Below are positions 8,627-52,708 of a DNA stretch of 64,000 bases, piece by piece. This DNA comes from Bacteroidales bacterium (GTDB taxonomy: Bacteria > Bacteroidota > Bacteroidia > Bacteroidales > GCA-2748055): contig JARGFP010000004.1 in the NCBI GenBank assembly GCA_029210585.1, positions 78,244-142,243 on the forward strand. Direction: 5' to 3'. The notes below the pieces were generated by a model. It was not told the origin of the DNA. It worked only from the letters and a program-made list of their open reading frames with translations, and ran no database searches. Both the position numbers and the translations under genes were made by a program. Within the stretch, counting starts at the first letter, position 1. Every line of letters begins with the position of its first letter.

Positions 8627-10002
8627 ACATCGCACCATACCTGCTGGAGAAATACAATGTCCCGGTGCCGCGGTATACCAGCTACCCACCTGCCAATCAT
8701 TTCGACGAACAGGTGACCGGCGGGGAAATGCCGGAACTGATCCGCAGCTCCAACAACTGGGCCCCCGATCATATTGGGTTCTATATTCATATCCCCTTTT
8801 GCAGGAAGATCTGTTTTTATTGCGGGTGCAATGCCTGTACACTGAAAAGCACCGGCGAGGTAACACAGTACACAGAGGCACTAAAACAGGAGATCAGGCT
8901 TGTGGCCAAAGCGCTCAACCGGTCCAGGAAGGTCACGCAGATCCATTTCGGGGGCGGCACCCCAAATTCCATTCCTGCAGAAATGCTGGAAGAAATCGTG
9001 CGGTTGATCAGGCTGGAATTCTCCGTCTCAGAAGCAGCCGAGATCGCCATCGAGACCAATCCCGCATACCTCGATGAAGCCTATCTTGAGACATTACTGG
9101 GTGTGGGCTTCAACAGGTTCAGCTTCGGGATCCAGGATTTCGATCCGCAGGTCCTGCGCAATGTGAACCGTGAGCCCAGTAAGCTGCCGGTGGAACAACT
9201 CATTGCCATGGTCAAAAAGGAGAATGACCAGGCAGCTGTCAATTTGGATTTCATCTACGGACTGCCGGGCCAGGATAAGACAACTTTTGTACGCACCATG
9301 GAACAGGCCATCGCCCTGCAGCCCGACCGCCTGGTGACCTTCTCCTATGCACACGTTCCCTGGCTGAAGAAGCACCAGCAGATCCTGGAGAAAAAAGGGT
9401 TGCCCGGACCGGCAGAGAAAACAGCCATGTTCCTGTCCGGATACGATGCCCTGGTTTCAGCAGGTTACAAACCCATCGGGCTGGATCATTTTGTAAAGCC
9501 GCAGGATGATCTCTTCCAGGCGCTTGAAAACAAACAGCTTCACCGCAATTTCCAGGGATATTGTACCCGGAAAACCACCGGGCAGGTCTATGCCTTTGGC
9601 ATCACGGCAATCAGCCAGCTGGAGAAAGCGTATATTCAGAATACCAAATCGATCGATACCTACGTGGAACAATTGTCACAGGGAAACCTACCCGTGGAAA
9701 AAGGCATTCGCGTGTCAGCTGAACAGGTGGTGATCAGGGAGGTGATCACCAGGCTCATGTGCAACAGGGAGCTTGACTGGAACCTGGTGTCAGGTGAACT
9801 GCAGGTGGACCTCCCGGAACTGAAAGGGATCCTGAATGACGATCCGAAGCAACTGGCAGAGATGGAAGCGGACGGACTGCTGCACAGGACGGAACATGGC
9901 CTTACGGTTACGGAGACAGGATCACTGTTCATCCGGAACATCGCCGCACTGTTCGATCCGGCCTACCGGCAACAGGTGAATAAATATTCCAAATCCCTTT
10001 AG
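8623..10002 (+). CDS. hemN: Oxygen-independent coproporphyrinogen III oxidase
   Basis: Radical SAM enzyme of 459 residues that decarboxylates coproporphyrinogen III to protoporphyrinogen IX. The N-terminal LEKYNVPVPRYTSYPP is typical of true HemN rather than HemW. The Fe-S motif is C60, C64, C67 with the extra C69 (FCRKICFYCGC), also a HemN trait. QIHFGGGTPN (SAM binding), IETNP, FNRFSFGIQDF and NLDFIYGLPGQ follow. The C-terminal domain contains GLDHFVKPQDDL and FQGYCTR. The start at 8623 is chosen because it begins at the conserved N-terminus and overlaps the permease stop by ATGA; an upstream in-frame start at 8317 would run through the permease gene. A G-rich repeat begins just after the stop. 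Confidence 0.95.
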   Translation: MNIAPYLLEKYNVPVPRYTSYPPANHFDEQVTGGEMPELIRSSNNWAPDHIGFYIHIPFCRKICFYCGCNACTLKSTGEVTQYTEALKQEIRLVAKALNRSRKVTQIHFGGGTPNSIPAEMLEEIVRLIRLEFSVSEAAEIAIETNPAYLDEAYLETLLGVGFNRFSFGIQDFDPQVLRNVNREPSKLPVEQLIAMVKKENDQAAVNLDFIYGLPGQDKTTFVRTMEQAIALQPDRLVTFSYAHVPWLKKHQQILEKKGLPGPAEKTAMFLSGYDALVSAGYKPIGLDHFVKPQDDLFQALENKQLHRNFQGYCTRKTTGQVYAFGITAISQLEKAYIQNTKSIDTYVEQLSQGNLPVEKGIRVSAEQVVIREVITRLMCNRELDWNLVSGELQVDLPELKGILNDDPKQLAEMEADGLLHRTEHGLTVTETGSLFIRNIAALFDPAYRQQVNKYSKSL

Positions 10003-10045
10003 GGGAGACTGGGAGATGGGGAGACGGGGTGATTGGGTGACGGGG
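10003..10045 (+). repeat. G-rich ~8-bp tandem motif after hemN stop
   Basis: Immediately after the hemN stop lies a run of degenerate units (ggggagact, gggagat, ggggagac, ggggtgatt, gggtgac, ggggagag). It is the same family as at 2657-2720 and 51877-51933. Confidence 0.8.
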
Positions 10046-10199
10046 AGAGCAGAGAGCGAAAAGGAAGAAGAGAGAAGGGAGCGAAGGGAGAGAAAAGGAA
10101 GAAGAGAGAAGGGAGAGAAAAGGAAGAAGAGAGCAGAGAGCGAAAAGGAAGAAGAGAGAAGGGAGCGAAGGGAGCGAACAGGAAGAAGAGAGAACAGTG
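10042..10199 (+). repeat. Long purine-only tandem repeat between hemN and hemG
   Basis: About 155 nt of almost pure A/G on the plus strand, built from imperfect copies of a 25-34 bp unit beginning aaaaggaagaagagagaa and often extended by gggagcgaagggag. It stays open in the hemG frame from 10016 and would encode a highly charged Arg/Glu/Lys segment, but the conserved HemG N-terminus starts downstream at 10232. Confidence 0.9.
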
Positions 10200-10231
10200 A
10201 TAAAAGCAGAAACAACAGGAATAAAGAGAAG

Positions 10232-11725
10232 ATGGAAAAGATAGAGGCAGATAGTATCATTGTCGGGGCTGGTCTGACGGGCCTGACCGTTGCTTTTTAC
10301 CTGGCCAGGGCCGGACAAAAGGTCGTGGTACTGGAAAAAACGGACCATATCGGCGGTGTGATCCGCACCATTCACCAGGACGGCTTCATTTTCGAAACCG
10401 GTCCGAACACGGGGGTCTATTCCTCCCCGGAGCTGGTCAGCCTCTTCGACGACCTGGAGGGAACGGCTGTTCCGGAATTCGCCAATGCAAAAGGAAAGCA
10501 GCGCTGGATATGGAAAAAGGGGCAATGGCACGCCCTTCCATCAGGCCTGGGATCAGCGGTTGGCACCCCCCTGTTTACCATCCATGACAAGTTCAGAATC
10601 CTGGGCGAACCCTTCAGGAAAAAAGGAACTGACCCATATGAATCCGTTGCACAACTGGTACGGCGAAGAATGGGTAAGAGTTTCCTGGAATATGCAGTGG
10701 ATCCCTTCATTTCGGGTATTTATGCTGGCGACCCGGAAAAACTCGTAACGCGTTTCGCATTGCCAAAATTATACCGGCTGGAACAGGATTACGGAAGTTT
10801 TATTCGCGGTGCAATGAAAAAACGCAGGGAACCCAGGGACGAGCTGACCAGGCGGGCGACCAGGGAGGTGTTCTCCGTGAAAGGCGGACTGCAGGAACTT
10901 ACTGAAGCACTCGGCAATAAGATCGGAAGGGGGCAGATCATCACCGGTACGCAGGACCTGAAAATCATCCGCAGGCAAAAAAAGTACGAGGCGGCATTCA
11001 AAACGGGCGGAAAGGAATACCTGGTATCTTCCGCGCATGTGGTCACCACCGTTCCCGGGCCTGCCCTGGAGAACATGTTCAGCTTTATCAGCACGCCAGC
11101 GCTCAAACCCATACTGGACCTGAGGTACGCAAAGGTGGTACAGGTCATTGCCGCCTACAGGAAATGGGCAGGCCCCCCGCTGAATGCCTTCGGCGGACTG
11201 ATTCCCTCCCGGGAAAAACGGGATGCACTCGGAATTCTTTTCACCTCTTCCATCTTCAATGACAGGACCCCTGAAGGAGGGGCAATCCTCTCGGTATTCA
11301 TGGGAGGCGACCGGCGACCCGGTTTTATTGAGAAGTCGGACGAAGAGATCAGGACCCTGGCGCTGCAGGAGATCACAGGAACCCTCGGGCAGCAGGAGAT
11401 CACAGGAAGCCCCGGGCAGCAGGAGATCTCCGGGACCACCGGGCAACAGGAAATCGCCGGAACCCCCGGTCAGCAGGATCTGCAACCTGGCCAACAGCAG
11501 GACCTAAGGGCTTTGCTGCAGCCTGATTTCATGAAGATTTTTCGCTACCCGTACGCCATTCCACAGTATGAAGCTTCCACGGAACAGCGCCTGGAAGCCA
11601 TTGAAAAAATGGAAGCGGCGTATCCCGGGATCCACCTGGCCGGGAACATCCGCGACGGGATCGGGATGGCCGACCGGGTGAAGCAGGGATACCAGGTTGC
11701 AATGCATATTTTAAAGGACGCCTGA
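10232..11725 (+). CDS. hemG: Protoporphyrinogen oxidase with in-frame repeat insertion
   Basis: FAD enzyme (HemY/PPO type, often called hemG in this phylum) oxidising protoporphyrinogen IX to protoporphyrin IX; 497 residues. The dinucleotide fold is at the N-terminus (IIVGAGLTGLTVAFYLARAG, then VLEKTDHIGGVIRT), followed by GFIFETGPNTG and DPFISGIYAGDPEKL; the C-terminus has HLAGNIRDGIGMADRV. The start at 10232 precedes this fold directly; the frame is open back to 10016 through the purine repeat. Residues 380-424 are an insertion: four 9-residue repeats of the type EITGxxGQQ, then a Gln-rich tail, between DEEIRTLAL and LRALLQPDF, which are normally close together. The insertion probably forms a surface loop. 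Confidence 0.92.
   Translation: MEKIEADSIIVGAGLTGLTVAFYLARAGQKVVVLEKTDHIGGVIRTIHQDGFIFETGPNTGVYSSPELVSLFDDLEGTAVPEFANAKGKQRWIWKKGQWHALPSGLGSAVGTPLFTIHDKFRILGEPFRKKGTDPYESVAQLVRRRMGKSFLEYAVDPFISGIYAGDPEKLVTRFALPKLYRLEQDYGSFIRGAMKKRREPRDELTRRATREVFSVKGGLQELTEALGNKIGRGQIITGTQDLKIIRRQKKYEAAFKTGGKEYLVSSAHVVTTVPGPALENMFSFISTPALKPILDLRYAKVVQVIAAYRKWAGPPLNAFGGLIPSREKRDALGILFTSSIFNDRTPEGGAILSVFMGGDRRPGFIEKSDEEIRTLALQEITGTLGQQEITGSPGQQEISGTTGQQEIAGTPGQQDLQPGQQQDLRALLQPDFMKIFRYPYAIPQYEASTEQRLEAIEKMEAAYPGIHLAGNIRDGIGMADRVKQGYQVAMHILKDA
11369..11476 (+). repeat. Four in-frame 27-bp tandem repeats inside hemG
   Basis: Units at 11369-11395, 11396-11422, 11423-11449 and 11450-11476 encode EITGTLGQQ, EITGSPGQQ, EISGTTGQQ and EIAGTPGQQ. 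A partial Gln-rich continuation runs to about 11503. Confidence 0.95.
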
Positions 11726-11935
11726 TGTGGTAACTTCATAGAGAGGCACAACCGCTGATGCGGGCACGGAAAGTATGAAGCGCAAAAAAGAGTGACCGCA
11801 GGGACAAAGGGAACATCAGAAAGATTGAATCCTGCCAGGCAAAAATGTGAAGCATAGGTGAATAAGAAGTCGAAGCAATGATCCAGGAGCGTTTAAATGA
11901 TTATTTTTAGCGTATCCAGACAAAACAGGAAAAAG

Positions 11936-13138
11936 ATGACAGCAAACCATCAACAAAAAACAGCCTGGGTACTGGTGAACGTCGGCACCCCGAAACACCC
12001 TTCCAATATTGAAGTTGAAAAGTATTTGAAGGAATTCCTCGATGATCCCAAAGTGATCGATCTCCCGTTCCTGCTGAGAAAATTCCTCGTCCATGCCATC
12101 ATCGTACCCTTCAGGTCGCCCCGTTCAGCAAAAAAATACAGGCAGATATGGACTGCCGATGGCTCCCCCCTGCTGACCCACATGAACCGCCTGGTGGAAA
12201 AGGTCCAGGTTGTGGCCCCGGAAGACACAGATGTATTCGGACTCATGCGGTACGGTCAGCCGGCATTGAAAGACTTTCTGCAGCAATTACCGGAAAAGCA
12301 ATACAACGAAGTGATCGTGCTGCCCCTCTACCCGCAATATGCCGACTCCACCTCGGGCTCAGTGGAACAACTGGTCTCCTCCTTCCCGGACAAATCACGC
12401 GATCACACCAGCCGCGGCAGCAACGGCAAGGGCAGCAACGCCAAGACCAGCAATGTAAGTAGCATCGCTGGCGACGGTAACGCTGGCGACGGTAACGAGC
12501 GCTACGATACCAGCAGCAGCAAGGGCAGCCAGGGCAGCCAGGGCAGCAGCAGCAACACCGGCGACACCGGAAACCCCGGCAGCGTCAGCATCAGGACCAT
12601 TGACCAGTTCTATAACCATCCCGGGTTCATTGCCAGCTTCGCTGAGCGGATACAGGTCCATGATCTGACAGACTTCGATCATATACTCTTCTCCTACCAT
12701 GGTCTTCCCCTGAGACAGCTACAGAAAGTTCATCCGGAGCAACCGGTCGCGGACTGTAATTGCCACCTCAGTATGCCCCCGTACGGTCATCATTGCTACC
12801 GGGCCACTTGCTACACCACCACCCGGCTGCTGGCAACCGCGACAGGGATCACGCCCGATCGTTGTTCCACCTCGTTCCAGTCGAGGCTCTCCCGGAACTG
12901 GATGACACCTTTTACCGATGAATCACTGATCCGCCTTGCAGCCGAGGGAAAGAAAAAAGTGCTGGTCGTTCCCGCCTCCTTCGTGGCCGACTGCCTGGAA
13001 ACCACCCTGGAGATCGGCATGGAGTACAGGGAACTGTATATTGAAAACGGGGGAGAGGAACTGGTAATGGCCGAAAGCCTGAACAGCAGCGACCGCTGGA
13101 TGGAAACGGTAAAAGCATTGATGCAAAAAACCGGTTGA
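11936..13138 (+). CDS. hemH: Ferrochelatase with low-complexity insertion
   Basis: Inserts ferrous iron into a porphyrin; 400 residues, against about 320-345 for most family members. Conserved parts: KTAWVLVNVGTP at the N-terminus, FRSPRSAKKYRQIW, GSPLLTHM, VIVLPLYPQYADSTSGS, ILFSYHGLPLRQ (the metal-inserting His), TSFQSRL and ASFVADCLETTLEIG (catalytic Glu). The start at 11936 gives the normal N-terminus; a start at 11897 would add 13 residues. Residues ~153-215 are a Gly/Ser/Asn/Asp-rich insertion between LVSSFPD and SVSIRTIDQF. Four Cys/His-rich residues around DCNCHLSMPPYGHHCYRATC might bind metal, but this is not certain. It is 210 nt downstream of hemG, on the same strand. The stop lies at the start of a tandem repeat. 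Confidence 0.94.
   Translation: MTANHQQKTAWVLVNVGTPKHPSNIEVEKYLKEFLDDPKVIDLPFLLRKFLVHAIIVPFRSPRSAKKYRQIWTADGSPLLTHMNRLVEKVQVVAPEDTDVFGLMRYGQPALKDFLQQLPEKQYNEVIVLPLYPQYADSTSGSVEQLVSSFPDKSRDHTSRGSNGKGSNAKTSNVSSIAGDGNAGDGNERYDTSSSKGSQGSQGSSSNTGDTGNPGSVSIRTIDQFYNHPGFIASFAERIQVHDLTDFDHILFSYHGLPLRQLQKVHPEQPVADCNCHLSMPPYGHHCYRATCYTTTRLLATATGITPDRCSTSFQSRLSRNWMTPFTDESLIRLAAEGKKKVLVVPASFVADCLETTLEIGMEYRELYIENGGEELVMAESLNSSDRWMETVKALMQKTG
12392..12580 (+). repeat. Low-complexity repeats inside hemH
   Basis: Includes a perfect 15-bp tandem pair, gctggcgacggtaac, at 12467-12481 and 12482-12496, plus iterated ggcagc/cagggcagc units around 12520-12555. The reading frame is kept throughout. Confidence 0.9.
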
Positions 13139-13236
13139 CAGCAACGCATCCACCTTCAGGCGGGTTATTAGGTGCAATACAGGCAACAGCAGCGCATCCA
13201 ACTGCTGGCCGGTTATAGGATGCAGTACGGCAGAAG
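13131..13236 (+). repeat. Imperfect tandem repeat spanning the hemH stop
   Basis: A first partial copy (13131-13160) contains the hemH stop codon (TGA at 13136-13138). It is followed by a full 48-nt copy (13161-13208) and a third partial copy from 13209. Shared core: cggtta, then gcaacGCATCC, then a ctgg/cagg end. Confidence 0.7.
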
Positions 13237-13294
13237 TTGTCGCCGGGATGTGAAAAAGAGGTTCCAGTATTGAGATAAGGAATGTCCCCGGGTA

Positions 13295-14305
13295 CTATTT
13301 TCCCAGCGAACGGTACAGGTCATTGACAATACTGTCGCGGTCGAAATGCTCCCACAAGATGATCTCACGTTCGTTCCCCGGGCGATCGACCCATCCGCCG
13401 GCGCCATAGAAAGGAGCTGGTACGGACCTGGGAACTGCCCATTCCGGGTTTTTGACGATCGCCACTGCGCCCAGGTCAAAAAGCGACCTGGAGGGGGGAT
13501 CACCATAGAGATCAATGTGATGGAAAAGATTCACTGCATAATCCCCGAAATTACTATAGGTGCCGCCGTGTCTTCCCGTAATGGCCGTTTCGCTCTGCGG
13601 ACCCAGGCCCGGCATTACCGAATCGATCTCGGGAAGTGATACCACTAAATCTGATGTGCCGGTCTTCCTTCCGTAACTTACGGTAACGATCTCAAAATGC
13701 ACCTCTTTTTCAAGCATGTAGTTCAGCGCCGAGGTGTCATTTTCCAGGTTATATTCCCCGGGCTCCGGGTAATTGCTCCCCAACCAGACAACCCTTATGT
13801 TATCGGCAATAGCGGGCTCCTTTTCCAGTGCCAGAGCGATATTCGTAAGTTTACCGATGGAAATCAGCACCAGTTGTTCCTCCGAACCTGTAAATTTCCC
13901 GGCCTCAGCGATGATGAAATCCACTGCTTCCTCACCATCATATCCCGGGGTGTCCAGGTGTTCCCTGATCTCGGCAAATGTGGTATCGGCGCCACGCCTG
14001 ACAATGATGTTGTCCTCCTGGTTGAAAAGGGTGAGGATGCGCATCGCTTCCCTGTAGTGGTCCTCGATATATCCTCCGTTTTGCGTGGAATTGACCGTGA
14101 TACCCAGGATGTCAAATGCTTCCTGGTTTTGCAGCATATAAGCAATGGCATGCTGGTCATCCAGCTCATTGTTGGCATCCGTATCGAGGATGACAGGAAT
14201 CCGTTGGTCCGGACTGCCGGGGTCTGTTTTACAGCCTGCACTCATCAACAGGAATATCACGATAAAAAAGCGGGTGATGCTGGTAAGAAGGTTACGGGTT
14301 TCCAT
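13295..14305 (-). CDS. Nucleoside hydrolase, predicted lipoprotein
   Basis: IunH-superfamily protein of 336 residues that would cleave the N-glycosidic bond of nucleosides. A hydrophobic N-terminus with the lipobox MSAGC (Cys25) predicts periplasmic or outer-membrane anchoring, unlike the cytosolic purine/pyrimidine ribohydrolases. The calcium-binding motif is VILDTDANNELDDQHAIAY (DTD..N.LDD), followed by ILGITVNSTQNGG. Met/Asn-containing active-site segments later in the chain are less canonical (SIGKLTNIALAL, HGGTYSNFGDYAVNLFHH). Substrate may differ from free nucleosides. It is downstream of and convergent with hemH, with 156 nt between them that hold the repeat array. Confidence 0.85.
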   Translation of the reverse strand: METRNLLTSITRFFIVIFLLMSAGCKTDPGSPDQRIPVILDTDANNELDDQHAIAYMLQNQEAFDILGITVNSTQNGGYIEDHYREAMRILTLFNQEDNIIVRRGADTTFAEIREHLDTPGYDGEEAVDFIIAEAGKFTGSEEQLVLISIGKLTNIALALEKEPAIADNIRVVWLGSNYPEPGEYNLENDTSALNYMLEKEVHFEIVTVSYGRKTGTSDLVVSLPEIDSVMPGLGPQSETAITGRHGGTYSNFGDYAVNLFHHIDLYGDPPSRSLFDLGAVAIVKNPEWAVPRSVPAPFYGAGGWVDRPGNEREIILWEHFDRDSIVNDLYRSLGK

Positions 14306-16143: not shown

Positions 16144-19100
16144 ATGTTTTCAAATCCGTACATACCGCATCCGTATACTGCCGGGATCATCCGATCGCTG
16201 GAGGATAAGGGAAACAAGGTGTTTCACCTGAAGGGATTGTCGGGATCTTCCAGGGCAGCCCTGTTCCAGGCTGTGGTGTCGGAGGCAAAAGGGAACCACC
16301 TGGTGCTGTTCCACGACAAGGAGGAGGCTGCCTATTTTTACACCGACCTGGTGAACCTGGAGGGAACACCGGAGCGAACGCTGTTTTTTCCTTCTTCCTA
16401 TAAACGATCGGTACAGTACGGTCAGACCGACGAGGCAAACATCATTACCCGCACACAGACCCTGAAGCGGCTGAATGAACAGCGTGTTTCGAGCTTCATC
16501 ATCACTTATGCCGAAGCGCTGCTGGAGCGGGTGATGACCCGGGCCGAACTGGGAAGGCACACCCTGGAGATCAAAACGGGGGAAAGCCTGGGCATGGAAT
16601 TCCTGGAGGAAGTGCTGAACACCTATCATTTCCAGCTGGTGGATTTTGTCTATGAACCGGGTCAGTACGCCATCCGGGGCGGGATCGCAGATGTCTTTTC
16701 CTATGCATCAAGCCAGCCCTGCCGCATCGACTTTTTTGGTGATGAGGTGGATTCCATCCGGTTGTTCGATGTGGAGACACAGCGTTCGCAGGAACAGATG
16801 AAGCGCATCTCGATCATTCCCAATGTCCAGTGGGAACAGGAGATGGGCGACAAAAGGGTCTCGTTCCTGGAGTTCATCCCTTCCAATACCACCATCTGGC
16901 TCGACGACCTGGAACTTGTGCTGGACCATATCAGAGATATTTGGGAAAAAACTACGATCGGAGCCGAAGGAAGACCGACAGGGATACCGCAGAAGTCCGG
17001 GGCTGAAGAGCGCAGAGAAAAGAAAGAGCGCGGGCTCGATAGAGGCGGACAAAGCGCCATGCCTCCATCACAAGACGACAGCGTATATTCTGAACGCACT
17101 GCCGACGGGAGCCATCCAGGATTAAAGGAAGCATTCCTGGTGCGCGAGGACCTTATCAGGGAAAAACTGGAGGACCATGCCCGGATTGAATTCACCCGAC
17201 CGGTACTGCCCGCTCCGGCGCAGGAATGGAAATTCAGCACCACCCCGCAGCCTCCCTTCAACAAGGATTTCGGACTGCTGGCCCGCATCCTGCACGAGAA
17301 CAACCGGAACGGCTTACACAACTATATTCTTTCTGAAAGCAGCAGTCAGCTCGAACGGCTGCGGGCCATCTTTGACGAGGTGCATCCCGGCCTGGCCTAC
17401 ACGGAAGGGACCACAACGGTGCACGAAGGATTCACCGACCATGACCTCAGGGTAGCGATCTACACCGACCACCAGATCTTCGACCGGTACCACAAGTTCA
17501 GGCTGCACGACCGCTTTACCAAAAAAGAGGCACTGTCGGTAAAGGAACTCTCCGGCCTTATGCCCGGCGACTACGTGGTGCATGTGGATCACGGTATCGG
17601 CAAGTTCGGCGGACTGGAACGGATCGATGTGAACGGACGCAGGCAGGAAGCGGTGCGCCTGGTGTACAAGGACAACGACGTGTTGTTCGTGAACATCCAC
17701 TCGCTCCACAAGATCTCCAAGTACAAAGGCAAGGAGGGACATGCGCCCCGGGTGTATAAGCTCGGCACCGGGGCCTGGCAGAAACTGAAGCAGAAGACCA
17801 AGAGCAAGGTCAAGGACATCGCCACCGAACTCATCGCCCTGTATGCCAGGCGCAGGGAGCAGAAAGGATTTGCATTTTCCCCCGACACCTACCTGCAACG
17901 TGAGCTGGAGGCTTCCTTTATATACGAGGACACCCCCGACCAGGAAAAAGCCACCCGGGACTTCAAGTCAGGCATGGAAGCAGAATTTCCCATGGACCGC
18001 CTGATCTGCGGCGACGTAGGGTTCGGCAAGACCGAAGTGGCCATTCGTGCCGCTTTCAAGGCCTTGAGTGACAGCAAACAGGTGGCAGTGCTGGTGCCCA
18101 CAACCGTGCTGGCTTTCCAGCATTACAACACCTTTAAGAACAGGCTGAAGGATTTTCCCTGTACCGTCGACTATATCAGCAGGTTCCGGACCGCCGGGGA
18201 GCAGACAAACATAGTGAAACGGCTGAAAGAGGGATCGCTCGACATCCTCATCGGCACCCACAAACTGGTGAGCCAGCAGGTGAAATTCAGGGACCTGGGA
18301 TTGCTGATCATCGATGAGGAACAGAAGTTCGGGGTATCGGTAAAAGAGAAACTGAAGCAGATCAAGCTGAACGTGGACACGCTGACCCTCACGGCCACAC
18401 CGATCCCCCGTACACTGCAGTTCTCCCTGATGGGCGCCAGGGACCTGTCCATTATCAATACCCCGCCCCCCAACAGGCACCCGATCATCACCGAGCTGCA
18501 TCCCTTCAACGAAGAGATCATCCGCGAAGCCATCGAGTATGAAGTAAGCCGGGGCGGACAGGTATTTTTCATCCACAACCGTGTCCAGAACATTGTCGAG
18601 GTGAAACAGATGGTCGATGCACTCGTACCCGGCATCCGGTCCGTGATCGCACACGGTCAGATGGAAGGGAAACAACTGGAAAAAGTGATGCTGGACTTCA
18701 TGGCAGGAGACCACGATGTGCTGATCGCCACCTCCATTATCGAGTCGGGACTCGATATTCCCAATACCAATACAATAATTATCAACAATGCGCACCACTT
18801 CGGACTCAGCGATCTGCACCAGCTCCGGGGGAGGGTCGGGAGGTCCAACAAGAAGGCATTCTGCTACCTGTTTGCCCCCCATGTGACCCTGCTTACGCAG
18901 GAAGCCCGCAGGCGTCTGAAGGCGATCGAGGAGCACTCCGGACTGGGCAGCGGATTCAACATCGCCATGCAGGACCTGGACATCCGGGGCGCCGGAAACC
19001 TGCTGGGAGCCGAGCAGAGCGGGTTTATTGCCGATATAGGTTTCGAGACCTATCACAAGATACTGAACGAGGCCATCCAGGAGCTGAAAGAGGGCATATT

Positions 19101-19614
19101 TTCCGACCTGTTCGAAAAGGAAACAGTTGAAAAAGCTGGTCCGAACCAACACTACGCACAAGATTGTCAGATCGACACCGACCTGGAACTGCTGTTGCCG
19201 GAATCCTATATTGCGAACATCTCTGAACGGATGCACCTGTACCGGGAACTTGACAGTATCGAGACCAGTGAAGCCCTGGAGCAATTCAGGAAGATGCTGA
19301 GGGACAGGTTCGGGGAGCTGCCTTCTGAAGCAGAGGAACTGTTGAACGTGGTCCGTCTCAGGTGGCTGGCCATGCAGACAGGTGTTGAAAAGATTATCTT
19401 GAAAAAGAGCACGCTGATCGCGTACTTTGTAAGTGACCCGGATGCACTGTTCTACCGGTCGCAGGTGTTTGAAAAAATAATCGGGAATATCCAGCGGAAT
19501 CCCCGGCTTTTCAGCATGCGACAGGACAAAGACCGGTTAAGTTTCAGGATGGAAAATACCGGCAGCATCGATGCAACATTCAGGATACTGGAACATCTGC
19601 AAGACGGGGAATAG
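16144..19614 (+). CDS. mfd: Transcription-repair coupling factor
   Basis: ATP-dependent translocase of 1156 residues that removes stalled RNA polymerase and recruits UvrA. Order: UvrB-like N-terminal domains (PGQYAIRGGIADVFSY), the RNA polymerase-interaction CarD-like domain (GDYVVHVDHGIGKFGGLERI), then the helicase core with Walker A GDVGFGKTEVAIRAAF, VLVPTTVLAFQHY, IIDEEQKFGV (DEEQ box), LTATPIPRTL, IIESGLDIPNTNTIIINN, QLRGRVGRS, and the C-terminal TRCF domain (QIDTDLELLLPESYI). Residues ~270-328 (nt ~16951-17130) form a polar, non-conserved stretch rich in Glu, Lys and Arg (GAEERREKKERG) in the linker after VWL-type domain 2, where homologues are short. A 26-nt gap separates it from coaX. 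Confidence 0.97.
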   Translation: MFSNPYIPHPYTAGIIRSLEDKGNKVFHLKGLSGSSRAALFQAVVSEAKGNHLVLFHDKEEAAYFYTDLVNLEGTPERTLFFPSSYKRSVQYGQTDEANIITRTQTLKRLNEQRVSSFIITYAEALLERVMTRAELGRHTLEIKTGESLGMEFLEEVLNTYHFQLVDFVYEPGQYAIRGGIADVFSYASSQPCRIDFFGDEVDSIRLFDVETQRSQEQMKRISIIPNVQWEQEMGDKRVSFLEFIPSNTTIWLDDLELVLDHIRDIWEKTTIGAEGRPTGIPQKSGAEERREKKERGLDRGGQSAMPPSQDDSVYSERTADGSHPGLKEAFLVREDLIREKLEDHARIEFTRPVLPAPAQEWKFSTTPQPPFNKDFGLLARILHENNRNGLHNYILSESSSQLERLRAIFDEVHPGLAYTEGTTTVHEGFTDHDLRVAIYTDHQIFDRYHKFRLHDRFTKKEALSVKELSGLMPGDYVVHVDHGIGKFGGLERIDVNGRRQEAVRLVYKDNDVLFVNIHSLHKISKYKGKEGHAPRVYKLGTGAWQKLKQKTKSKVKDIATELIALYARRREQKGFAFSPDTYLQRELEASFIYEDTPDQEKATRDFKSGMEAEFPMDRLICGDVGFGKTEVAIRAAFKALSDSKQVAVLVPTTVLAFQHYNTFKNRLKDFPCTVDYISRFRTAGEQTNIVKRLKEGSLDILIGTHKLVSQQVKFRDLGLLIIDEEQKFGVSVKEKLKQIKLNVDTLTLTATPIPRTLQFSLMGARDLSIINTPPPNRHPIITELHPFNEEIIREAIEYEVSRGGQVFFIHNRVQNIVEVKQMVDALVPGIRSVIAHGQMEGKQLEKVMLDFMAGDHDVLIATSIIESGLDIPNTNTIIINNAHHFGLSDLHQLRGRVGRSNKKAFCYLFAPHVTLLTQEARRRLKAIEEHSGLGSGFNIAMQDLDIRGAGNLLGAEQSGFIADIGFETYHKILNEAIQELKEGIFSDLFEKETVEKAGPNQHYAQDCQIDTDLELLLPESYIANISERMHLYRELDSIETSEALEQFRKMLRDRFGELPSEAEELLNVVRLRWLAMQTGVEKIILKKSTLIAYFVSDPDALFYRSQVFEKIIGNIQRNPRLFSMRQDKDRLSFRMENTGSIDATFRILEHLQDGE

Positions 19615-33703: not shown

Positions 33704-34922
33704 GCACTGATTCTTCCATTAAATCTTGTCCTGCAACCTGTTCTGCTGCAACCTGTTCTGAGTTTTCTTTTTCTGCTGCCTCATCATCCGCCTGCGCTGC
33801 CATTTCCTTTTCGACTCCCCAGCTGATGCTGAGGATCATGCCCAGCGCCATACTTGTGAAAAGCATGGACGATCCACCCATACTGACCAATGGCAGGGTC
33901 TGGCCCGTCACCGGCAGCAATCCCACGGCAACCCCCATGTTTACAAATGCCTGGAATACCAGGCCGAGTGAGAGGCCAAAGGCCAGGAATGCCCCGAAGG
34001 TGCTTTTCGTTCGCCTGACGATCAGGCCGGTCCTGAACAGCAGCCACAGGTACATAAATATCAGGAGCAGTCCCCCGATGATCGATCCGTACTCCTCGAT
34101 GATGATCGCAAAGATGAAATCGGAATATGGGTGGGGCAACAACATTCTTTGTGTGCTGGTGCCCGGTCCGTTGGGCAGTATACCGCCCCTTACGATGGCC
34201 ACCTTGGCCTGGTCTGCCTGGAAATTATCTCCCTTCCCGGTCACATAGCGTTCGATGCGGTTTTTCCAGGTGGTGATCCTTCCCTCCCTACTCATCGCCG
34301 TGGAAAGCAGCAGGAACAAAGCAAGTCCGGCAATACCCGTACCCACGAACAGGGCCAGGTACCTGGTGGGAATTCGACCGATAAACAGCAGGATGAATGA
34401 TACCGTGAAAACGATCGCTGCCGTCGACAGGTTGGAAGGCAGGATGAGGATGCACACCAGGGAGATGGCGCCGATCAGCTTCAGGAACACCCCTTTGAAA
34501 TCCTGCAGGTTGTTCTGGTTGTTTCCCAAAACCCGTGCGAGATACATGATCAAGGCAAATTTTGCGAATTCCGATGGCTGAAAGGTATTACTGGTGCCCG
34601 GAATGGCTAGCCAGCGGTTGGCTTCATTGATATCCTGCCCTTTGATCAGGGTGATCACAAGGAGTACGATGGCACCCAGCAGAAAAGGGATCGACAATTT
34701 GCTGAAGATGCGGTAAGGGATCATCTGGAAGAGAATAATCACAGTCAGGCCGAGAATGATGTATTTGAACTGCCTGAACAGGTAGTAAAAGGTATCACCC
34801 GACACTTTCGTATAGGCCAGTGACCCGGTAGAGCTGTACACCGACAATAGCGATACAACGCTCAGTATGATGATCACTGTCCAGATCACCCTGTCGCCCC
34901 GTATGTATTTAAGTGCATTCAT
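33687..34922 (-). CDS. ftsW: Septal peptidoglycan polymerase FtsW
   Basis: SEDS-family polytopic protein of 411 residues with about ten membrane helices. Landmarks: SVVSLLSVYSSTGSLAY, NEANRWLAIPG, QPSEFAKFALIMYLA, HPYSDFIFAIIIEEYG, GLLPVTGQTLPLVSMGGSSML. It polymerises glycan strands together with the transpeptidase encoded upstream. The hydrophilic C-terminal tail after the last helix contains a 5-residue in-frame duplication (EQVAA/EQVAG) from a 15-bp tandem repeat at 33731-33760. Confidence 0.96.
   Translation of the reverse strand: MNALKYIRGDRVIWTVIIILSVVSLLSVYSSTGSLAYTKVSGDTFYYLFRQFKYIILGLTVIILFQMIPYRIFSKLSIPFLLGAIVLLVITLIKGQDINEANRWLAIPGTSNTFQPSEFAKFALIMYLARVLGNNQNNLQDFKGVFLKLIGAISLVCILILPSNLSTAAIVFTVSFILLFIGRIPTRYLALFVGTGIAGLALFLLLSTAMSREGRITTWKNRIERYVTGKGDNFQADQAKVAIVRGGILPNGPGTSTQRMLLPHPYSDFIFAIIIEEYGSIIGGLLLIFMYLWLLFRTGLIVRRTKSTFGAFLAFGLSLGLVFQAFVNMGVAVGLLPVTGQTLPLVSMGGSSMLFTSMALGMILSISWGVEKEMAAQADDEAAEKENSEQVAAEQVAGQDLMEESVHEGDK
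33731..33760. repeat. 15-bp tandem duplication in the ftsW tail
   Basis: ctgcaacctgttctg twice in direct succession (33731-33745, 33746-33760), in frame, close to the 3' end of ftsW. Confidence 0.95.
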
Positions 34923-34963
34923 CTGTTACTTTAGTTCCTGTTTTTTTTCAGGTATATTCCTTC

Positions 34964-35067
34964 GTTATGTTCCCTCGTTACGCTCTTTCGTTATGTTCCT
35001 TCATTACGCTCTTTCGTTATGTTCCTTCGTTACGCTCTTTCGTTACGCTCTTTCATTACGTTCCTTC
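34964..35067. repeat. 13-bp tandem array between murD and ftsW
   Basis: Eight successive copies of a 13-bp unit, consensus gttaYgYtcYttc, at 34964-35067. The whole 230-nt gap between murD and ftsW (34923-35152) is otherwise empty except for a T-run near 34941-34948 and the murD-tail duplication. The array interrupts an otherwise tightly packed cluster. Confidence 0.95.
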
Positions 35068-35130
35068 GTTCCTGTCCCTTTTGATCCTCCCCACGGCATT
35101 TCTGAAAAATTCCGGACGGTAACCAAATCA

Positions 35131-51238: not shown

Positions 51239-52708
51239 ATGCCGGCAAAGAAGTTATATATAGAGACCTACGGTTGTCAGATGAACGTGGTGGACTCCGA
51301 GGTGGTGGTGGCCATTCTTCAGCAGCAGGACTACGAGTTGACGGAAAAAATGGAAGAGGCCGATTTGGTACTGGTCAACACATGCTCCATCCGCGACAAC
51401 GCGGAGCAGAAGGTACGGACCAGGATCATGGAATTCGGAAGACAGAAGAAAATCAACGAACACCTGGTGGTGGGAGTGATCGGTTGTATGGCCGAGCGGC
51501 TCAAGGAAAAACTGTTGGAAGACGAGCGCTCCGTCGACCTGGTGGTGGGTCCGGATGCCTACCGCGAACTTCCCCGGCTGTTGCAGGAAGTGGACAATGG
51601 CCAGAAGGGGATCAATACACAGCTTTCCCTGGAGGAGACCTACGCCGATGTCAGCCCGGTAAGGCTGGACAAAAACAGGGTATCCTCCTTCGTCTCCATC
51701 ATGCGGGGCTGCAACAACTTTTGTGCCTACTGCGTGGTCCCCTATACCCGGGGAAGGGAACGCAGCCGTGATCCGCATACCATCGAACGGGAAGTGCGGG
51801 AACTTTTTGACAACGGATACAGGGAAGTCACCCTGCTGGGACAGAATGTCAACTCGTACCTCTGGGACGGCAGCCAGGGAGACCGGGGAACCGGGGGACC
51901 GGGGGACCGGGGGACCCGGGGAGCGGGTGATGGAAGCAATGGAAAATTCGGCGCAGCTGGTATTTGGGCAGCTGATGCAGGCGACCCTGGCGGAACCGCA
52001 AAGAAAGAAGAATCGGGCACATCGCCGGTCAGGTTTGAGGACCTGCTGGAACGGATCGCGAACATCTCACCAAGGCTGAGGGTCCGGTTCGCTACTTCCC
52101 ATCCCAAGGACATGTCTGATGAGCTATTGCTGACAATGGCAAAACACCAGAACCTCTGCCGGAGCATCCACCTGCCGGTGCAGTCGGGCAGTACAGCAGT
52201 GCTGAAAAGAATGAAACGGGGATACACCCGCGAAATGTATGAAGACCGTGTGCGGGCGATCCGAAAATACCTGCCCGAGGCAACTATCTCCACCGATATC
52301 ATCGCCGGATTCTGTGGCGAGACAGAAGCGGAACACCGCGAAACCCTTGAACTGATGCGATGGGCAGGATTCGACCTGGCCTACATGTTCAAATACAGCG
52401 AACGCCCCGATACTTTTGCAGCAAAGAAATACAAAGACGATGTCCCGGAAGAGATCAAGTCCAGGAGGCTGAGCGAGATCATCCGGCTGCAGGGAGAACT
52501 TTCCCTGGCAAGTAAAAAAGAGGATATCGGCAATACCTATGAAGTGCTGGTGGAAGGCACTTCAAAGAAATCGGCAGCAGAACTGGTGGGCAGGACCAGT
52601 CAGAACAAAGTGGTGGTGTTCCCCGCGCATGACATGCAGGCCGGTGATTACGCACAGGTGCGCATCAGGGATTGTACCTCGGCCACCCTGCTGGGAGAGG
52701 TGGTGTAA
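51239..52708 (+). CDS. miaB: tRNA-2-methylthio-N6-dimethylallyladenosine synthase with insertion
   Basis: Radical SAM methylthiotransferase of 489 residues, about 40-50 more than usual. UPF0004 domain: YIETYGCQMNVVDSE, NTCSIRDNAEQKV, VIGCMAERLKE. Radical SAM: IMRGCNNFCAYCVVPYTRGRERSR (CxxxCxxC). Then VTLLGQNVNSYLW, RFATSHPKDM, CRSIHLPVQSGS, TDIIAGFCGETE and a C-terminal TRAM domain (YEVLVEGTSKKSAAELVGRTSQNKVVVF). Residues ~212-262 are an insertion between NSYLWDG and VRFEDLLERI: first GDRGTGGPGDRGTRGAGDG, encoded by G-rich 8-bp repeats, then a Gly/Ala-rich stretch. The frame is intact, so the enzyme may be functional. Confidence 0.94.
   Translation: MPAKKLYIETYGCQMNVVDSEVVVAILQQQDYELTEKMEEADLVLVNTCSIRDNAEQKVRTRIMEFGRQKKINEHLVVGVIGCMAERLKEKLLEDERSVDLVVGPDAYRELPRLLQEVDNGQKGINTQLSLEETYADVSPVRLDKNRVSSFVSIMRGCNNFCAYCVVPYTRGRERSRDPHTIEREVRELFDNGYREVTLLGQNVNSYLWDGSQGDRGTGGPGDRGTRGAGDGSNGKFGAAGIWAADAGDPGGTAKKEESGTSPVRFEDLLERIANISPRLRVRFATSHPKDMSDELLLTMAKHQNLCRSIHLPVQSGSTAVLKRMKRGYTREMYEDRVRAIRKYLPEATISTDIIAGFCGETEAEHRETLELMRWAGFDLAYMFKYSERPDTFAAKKYKDDVPEEIKSRRLSEIIRLQGELSLASKKEDIGNTYEVLVEGTSKKSAAELVGRTSQNKVVVFPAHDMQAGDYAQVRIRDCTSATLLGEVV
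51877..51933 (+). repeat. G-rich 8-bp tandem repeat inside miaB
   Basis: Successive units gggagacc, ggggaacc, gggggacc, gggggacc, gggggaccc, ggggagcg, ggtgatgg. Same motif family as the arrays after the aspartate kinase and hemN stops. The 8-bp unit is not a multiple of three, yet the total insertion keeps the frame. Confidence 0.92.

Follow-up and report, generated by a model that had tools for sequence, protein, structure and literature searches.

Bacterial core enzymes are usually regarded as streamlined. The locus studied here raises the question of how one of them, the ferrochelatase HemH of a Bacteroidales bacterium, came to contain a long in-frame segment built of short tandem repeats, whether that segment is real, and what it may mean for the enzyme. 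The question was approached within the window, i.e. the whole stretch of 64,000 nucleotides that was analyzed, in the genome to which it belongs (G000), and in samples of related genomes, among which G001 and G003 are of the same genus.

The HemH insert and the enzyme core

The features of hemH and its immediate surroundings, in window positions, are:

11897–13138, + strand: hemH, an open frame for a ferrochelatase of 413 aa (NCBIfam TIGR00109; match to Pfam PF00762 divided in two, E 9e-81)
12392–12580, + strand: in-frame Ser/Gly/Asn/Asp-rich insert of HemH (alignment of 32 HemH; AF2 model)
12416–12453, + strand: 15-bp array in the insert, 2.5 copies, 86% (TRF)
12466–12497, + strand: 15-bp array in the insert, 2.1 copies, 100% (TRF; exact 15-bp pair at 12466 and 12481)
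12516–12547, + strand: 9-bp array in the insert, 3.6 copies, 95% (TRF)
13138–13232, no strand: 48-bp repeat, 2.0 copies, immediately 3′ of hemH (TRF)

The hemH frame comprises 413 codons with no internal stop, and translation may start at the inner ATG at 11936. The protein scored 271.7 bits with PF00762 (cut-off 27) and 198.2 bits with TIGR00109 (cut-off 124.6). The insert stretch measures 189 bp, i.e. 63 codons. The net insertion amounted to 57 aa versus the HemH of G001 and to 66 aa versus that of G068 (the latter in a comparison with limits of 35% identity and 25 aligned residues), its edges varying with the alignment, and residues from about 162 to 228 have no counterpart in nearly all the relatives. 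Gly, Ser, Asn, Thr, Asp, Lys and Gln make up 82% of the insert residues, a value matched by none of 4,255 segments of 60 aa taken from conserved G000 genes, in which the maximum was 65%. An earlier note on this DNA had described a Gly/Ser/Asn-rich insertion of 63 residues at this place, keeping the frame and made of small tandem repeats with a perfect 15-bp pair among them, a description that was borne out in its position, frame, composition and repeats.

Concerning the DNA of the insert, no second copy was found in G000, G001, G003 or G008, where the best other matches were of 16–21 bp with E values of at least 0.06, and the 8-mers of the insert did not exceed GC-matched controls in their frequency in G000 (percentile 6.7). 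A dispersed element with further copies was thereby ruled out as the source of the HemH insert. As judged from their sequence, its own 15- and 9-bp units are local and stand outside the 8-bp family considered below.

His268, in the motif SYHGLP, and Glu368, in the motif DCLETT, were invariant in the alignments, as were both motifs, and we take these two residues to be the catalytic pair, corresponding to human His263 and Glu343. After His268 come four conserved cysteines (Cys287, Cys289, Cys300 and Cys305, in the pattern CxC...C...C; window positions 12755–12811), which probably represent the usual [2Fe-2S] insertion of Bacteroidetes. In the available text of PMC8529089, the latter is an internal insertion of 22–34 aa with conserved cysteines, common in ferrochelatases of that phylum. 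The repeat insert resembles it in lying also inside the ferrochelatase core, but differs in being located at another site and in being cysteine-free, with no cysteine among the 61 of its residues that were counted. Since the four cysteines are present in addition, and elsewhere, the two insertions are distinct, and the possibility that the repeat insert was the known [2Fe-2S] insertion was discarded.

The AF2 model obtained for HemH was weak (mean pLDDT 51.6, with 3 sequences). In this weak model, the insert runs between a helix (146–161) and a strand (231–234) and is the least certain part, with pLDDT values of 23–30 over most of it, near-devoid of secondary structure and with a short helix turn at 166–169. 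When the model was compared with the PDB using Foldseek, the best matches were ferrochelatases (E 3e-12), with a query TM-score of only 0.43–0.49. The composition of the insert and its lowest pLDDT would fit a disordered segment.

HemH insertions among related genomes

The protein was matched in 31 of 100 related genomes, and 32 HemH loci were aligned, that of the window included. In 30 of these 32, the insert was missing and the length of the loop was near-constant. The exception besides G000 was G003, which holds in the same HemH loop an insert of about 50 aa, with a sequence unrelated to that of G000 and without evident clear repeats; the hemH gene of G003 lies at a contig end and adjoins there a 7-bp array. 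The HemH of G001, on the other hand, has no insert. In a wider sample of 393 genomes across the order, a ferrochelatase above the Pfam cut-off was found in 93, and a profile match split at positions 140–147 occurred only in G000 and G003. A phylum-wide search gave a ferrochelatase above the cut-off in 337 of 395 genomes, and the split at 140–147 was not found in 12 genomes re-inspected from that search. The HemH insert at this site is thus confined, within the samples searched, to two congeners. On the HemH tree, G000 and G003 are sisters (support 89/67) and the genus forms a clade (100/99), so that one gain followed by complete turnover and two separate gains are both possible.

Insertions of other kinds were seen at other sites of the enzyme. 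Two genomes of the genus g83 (G104 and G207) are expanded at the following loop, at about positions 175–179, by a long acidic insert that is missing from their congener G362. With TRF at score 40, no array was detected in the ferrochelatase locus of G104, nor within the gene at the locus of G207, where a contig break splits the gene within its acidic insert. Elsewhere in the phylum, two of the 12 re-inspected genomes, G495 and G522 (L111, L112), have some 20 additional residues where the ferrochelatase match splits at profile positions 63/64, which makes a third site of insertion.

Inserts and tandem arrays in other genes

The other insert-bearing genes of the window, and the repeats that precede one of them, are:

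10002–10206, no strand: repeats between hemN and the PPO gene, 8/16/24-bp GGGGAGAC-like and then 84-bp purine-rich (TRF)
10016–11725, + strand: protoporphyrinogen oxidase (PPO) gene (TIGR00562, 258 bits, cut-off 97.85, on 10226–11722)
11365–11478, + strand: 27-bp array, 4.2 copies, translated as 9-aa repeats and forming the core of the 39-aa PPO insert (TRF; alignment)
16144–19614, + strand: mfd, transcription-repair coupling factor (TIGR00580, 964 bits, cut-off 800)
16960–17121, + strand: insert-holding stretch of Mfd, charged, without a TRF array (Mfd alignment)
51239–52708, + strand: miaB, tRNA methylthiotransferase (TIGR01574, 466 bits, cut-off 355)
51870–52030, + strand: in-frame insert of MiaB (loop-length comparison; TRF)
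51877–51927, + strand: 8-bp GGGGGACC array within the MiaB insert, 6.4 copies (TRF)

The earlier note had pointed to a second enzyme of the same pathway with an in-frame expansion, and this was recognized in PPO, whose 39-aa insert is missing from 8 homologues, those of G003 and G001 among them. The 8-mers of this insert exceeded those of every control in their frequency in G000 (percentile 100). The true start of PPO is probably near 10226, past the purine-rich array, of which no other copies were found in G000, G001 or G003. The implied link with heme synthesis held only in part: HemH and PPO are both expanded, but HemN, encoded in the same operon, showed no net gain when aligned to that of G003, and inserts occur also in Mfd and MiaB, within the window, and in LysS and a hybrid histidine kinase, elsewhere in the genome. 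Given the inserts in Mfd, MiaB and LysS, heme synthesis was discarded as what the expanded enzymes share. Mfd contains about 44 extra charged residues, seen only in G000 among 28 Mfd rows that extend over the site, and their 8-mers were not in excess in G000 versus controls (percentile 1.7). Two further repeats of the window lie apart from these genes, namely an intergenic composite array of 13/26/39/52 bp (34953–35070) and a perfect 15-bp duplication close to the C-terminal end of a gene of the FtsW/RodA family (33731–33760).

In MiaB, the loop that follows the motif LLGQNVNSYxW has 65 aa in G000, 73 in G003 and 39 in G001, versus 31 in G008 (another genus of the same family) and 13–20 in all 21 others aligned. 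Its repeat unit is the 8-bp GGGGGACC in G000 and the 7-bp GGCAGTC in G003, and the loop sequences differ between these sister species. The linker that precedes the C-terminal domain of LysS, measured by eye, has about 56 aa in G000 and about 80 aa in G001, with 8-bp units in both (L206, L208), and about 66 residues in G003, where the unit differs by one base from the 7-bp one (L207); in the rows counted among 16 other loci, also by eye, it has 8–26 residues. This comparison took in 19 of 24 loci, the remaining five being fragments or missed by the motif. In a hybrid histidine kinase of G000 (L195:1121–3001), an in-frame 8-bp array codes for the linker between the receiver and Hpt domains. The LysS and histidine kinase cases were reached by tracing 8-bp arrays with a pattern derived from the MiaB insert. 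The 7-bp arrays of G003 were mostly outside conserved genes: among the 24 loci inspected, they were in frame in MiaB and perhaps in the N terminus of RsgA (L185:1378–2556), whose start codon is unsure. In the LysS linker of G001, a segment SAFAEATADG next to the 8-bp units gave the impression of resembling another dispersed repeat.

The kind of dispersed repeat depended on the species, G000 and G001 having 8-bp GGGGGACC-like repeats and G003 7-bp CAGTCGG-like ones. The 7-bp pattern matched G003 124 times and seven other genomes not once, and its reversed control gave 28 matches in G003. The 8-bp pattern, with up to 3 mismatches, gave the following matches (control in parentheses): G000, 33 (1); G001, 20 (4); G017, 13 (2); G003, 9 (24); G004, 5 (2); G009, 3 (7); and none in G008 and G007. 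The 7- and 8-bp units of MiaB and LysS are stop-free in every frame, but this also holds for about half of random units when both strands are considered, so it denotes no special adaptation. The density of tandem arrays per 100 kb was 13.6 in G000, 10.1 in G001 and 10.9 in G003, versus 0–2.5 in five of six other sampled genomes; the sixth, G055, from another genus, reached 10 with two arrays in only 20 kb. The array period was divisible by three in 9 of 13 arrays of conserved genes versus 33 of 93 elsewhere (Fisher p 0.03), and was not so in the other 4 of the 13.

Inserts of at least 15 aa were also surveyed in orthologue pairs, dropping pairs below 45% identity and insertions with fewer than 30 aligned residues on a side. 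The 88 pairs of G000 and G001 (32,041 aligned residues) yielded inserts in four G000 genes (those of HemH, PPO, Mfd and MiaB) and in none of G001; the 95 pairs of G000 and G003 yielded two in G000 (PPO and Mfd), and the 59 pairs of G003 and G001 two in G003 (HemH and MiaB). The four insert-bearing G000 genes are all inside the 64-kb window, three of them within about 7 kb. Because only 4 of 88 and 2 of 95 pairs showed G000 inserts, all in the window, the description of the inserts as a trait of the genus draws on few genes together with the cases found by pattern.

Origin and significance of the inserts

The explanation that we consider probable is that repeats grown by slippage are tolerated where they fall in exposed loops of enzymes that still work, the HemH insert being one case of a trait of the genus. 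Short DNA units would have been duplicated by replication slippage or unequal recombination, making the HemH insert grow in a loop tolerant of extra length; the insert would be translated as a disordered surface loop, the HemH core would stay functional, and selection would retain the frame and the enzyme. In the genus, with its minisatellite-rich genomes, tandem repeats would come to lie, with the frame kept, within the loops and linkers of conserved enzymes, and the units that are still readable, those of MiaB and LysS, are of the dispersed repeat kind of the same species. From the observations we infer that slippage produced the insert, that the loop is translated and disordered, that the enzyme remains active and that no special function is involved; the HemH insert itself is real, and probably harmless to the enzyme.

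That the insert is functional, serving as a disordered tether or a loop for docking by which HemH would be joined to PPO and possibly also to membranes or partners, seems quite improbable to us. A tether joining the two enzymes would account for the gain of inserts by both operon neighbours, which are adjacent and carry each a hydrophilic repeat insert, and it would agree with the filling of the same HemH loop in two sister species and with the long acidic insert at the second loop in two g83 genomes. However, the HemH inserts of G000 and G003 share no sequence, G003 lacks the PPO insert and G001 lacks both, and like inserts exist in enzymes foreign to heme, such as Mfd, MiaB and LysS. A function of the HemH loop is possible but unsupported. 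We find it unlikely that a dispersed or mobile repeat family is actively entering genes, in the manner of the Rickettsia palindromic elements (RPEs) discussed below, with the HemH insert as a decayed copy. The species-specific 7- and 8-bp arrays, the presence of their units in MiaB and LysS and the 8-mer excess of the PPO insert are what such a family would produce, but no further copy of the HemH insert was found in the genomes searched, and its 8-mers and those of the Mfd insert fall at low percentiles.

An artefact of assembly or binning could be suspected in G000, a draft of 116 contigs, short repeats being error-prone, and the location of the G003 hemH, which borders a 7-bp array where its contig ends, adds to the suspicion. 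It is nevertheless very improbable, as the frame is kept, the 189 bp combine mostly imperfect repeats with unique sequence, and the same HemH site also carries an insert in a congener whose genome was assembled independently; the repeat count of the HemH insert may still be wrong in the assembly. The interruption of a conserved enzyme might likewise evoke an insert that is removed, as an intron, an intein or by translational bypass. This is scarcely credible in view of 63 sense codons in frame with a strongly hydrophilic, protein-like composition; no Rfam family reached the gathering score in 9900–13400, and the Pfam search gave no intein family in HemH. Misassembly, splicing-out and a broken protein were the outcomes that the earlier note had named as refuting its insertion, and the open frame, the negative Rfam and Pfam results and the insert of the congener speak against them.

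Growth of repeats in tolerant loops, the explanation preferred here, has partial parallels. Borg elements, in the portion of PMC9879509 available, have genome-specific and rapidly changing tandem repeats, both intergenic and in frame in genes, where they code for disordered segments, and several of their genes with repeats are gathered in one hotspot. The likeness lies in the genome-specific repeats, both intergenic and in frame, and in the grouping of several repeat-bearing genes in one region. Borgs, however, are archaeal extrachromosomal elements whose in-gene units are all divisible by three according to that text, whereas the present case concerns a bacterial draft genome, with degenerate copies and core enzymes as targets, in which the rule fails (units of 15, 15, 9 and 27 bp in HemH and PPO, but of 8 bp in the MiaB of G000 and 7 bp in that of G003). 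The RPEs, as presented in the part of PMC10969869 available, which cites Ogata et al. 2000, are palindromic elements of about 150 bp, of named families, found in frame in unrelated metabolic genes and apparently tolerated by the proteins. In-frame repeats in unrelated metabolic genes, apparently tolerated, are common to both situations, but here no common element extends across genes save the 7- and 8-bp units, and the HemH insert occurs just once in the four genomes searched. Dispersed heptamer repeats, according to the accessible sections of PMC4692102 and PMC4679880, occur in Xanthomonas, Nostoc, Beggiatoaceae and some Bacteroidetes as many short arrays of one unit, sporadic between relatives, mainly intergenic and scarce in coding regions. 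The arrays described here are likewise many, short, of one unit across one genome and sporadic among relatives, but some of them lie inside conserved enzymes.

Within the literature searched, as far as its available text goes, no report was recognized as describing such inserts. Compared with the Borg, RPE and heptamer cases, what is new, at the level of sequence, is the occurrence of different repeat families at the same core-enzyme linkers in sister bacterial species. Repeat growth together with frame-keeping selection in an array-rich genome explains the observations by known processes. Going further, the linkers of MiaB, LysS and perhaps HemH might be standing docking places for the short tandem-repeat family of each species, with a running rewriting of housekeeping linkers that may even be selected, an idea that we offer tentatively and hold to be rather unlikely. 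If it were true, homologous enzymes of sister species would differ in their linkers, these being built of 7-bp or 8-bp repeats unrelated to each other.

As a caution, proteins of this kind split profile searches, and assemblies break at such repeats. For the biology of the genus, sister species with different repeats in the same enzyme linkers constitute natural replicates in which the origin of disordered segments, the keeping of the frame and the cost to the enzyme can be followed.
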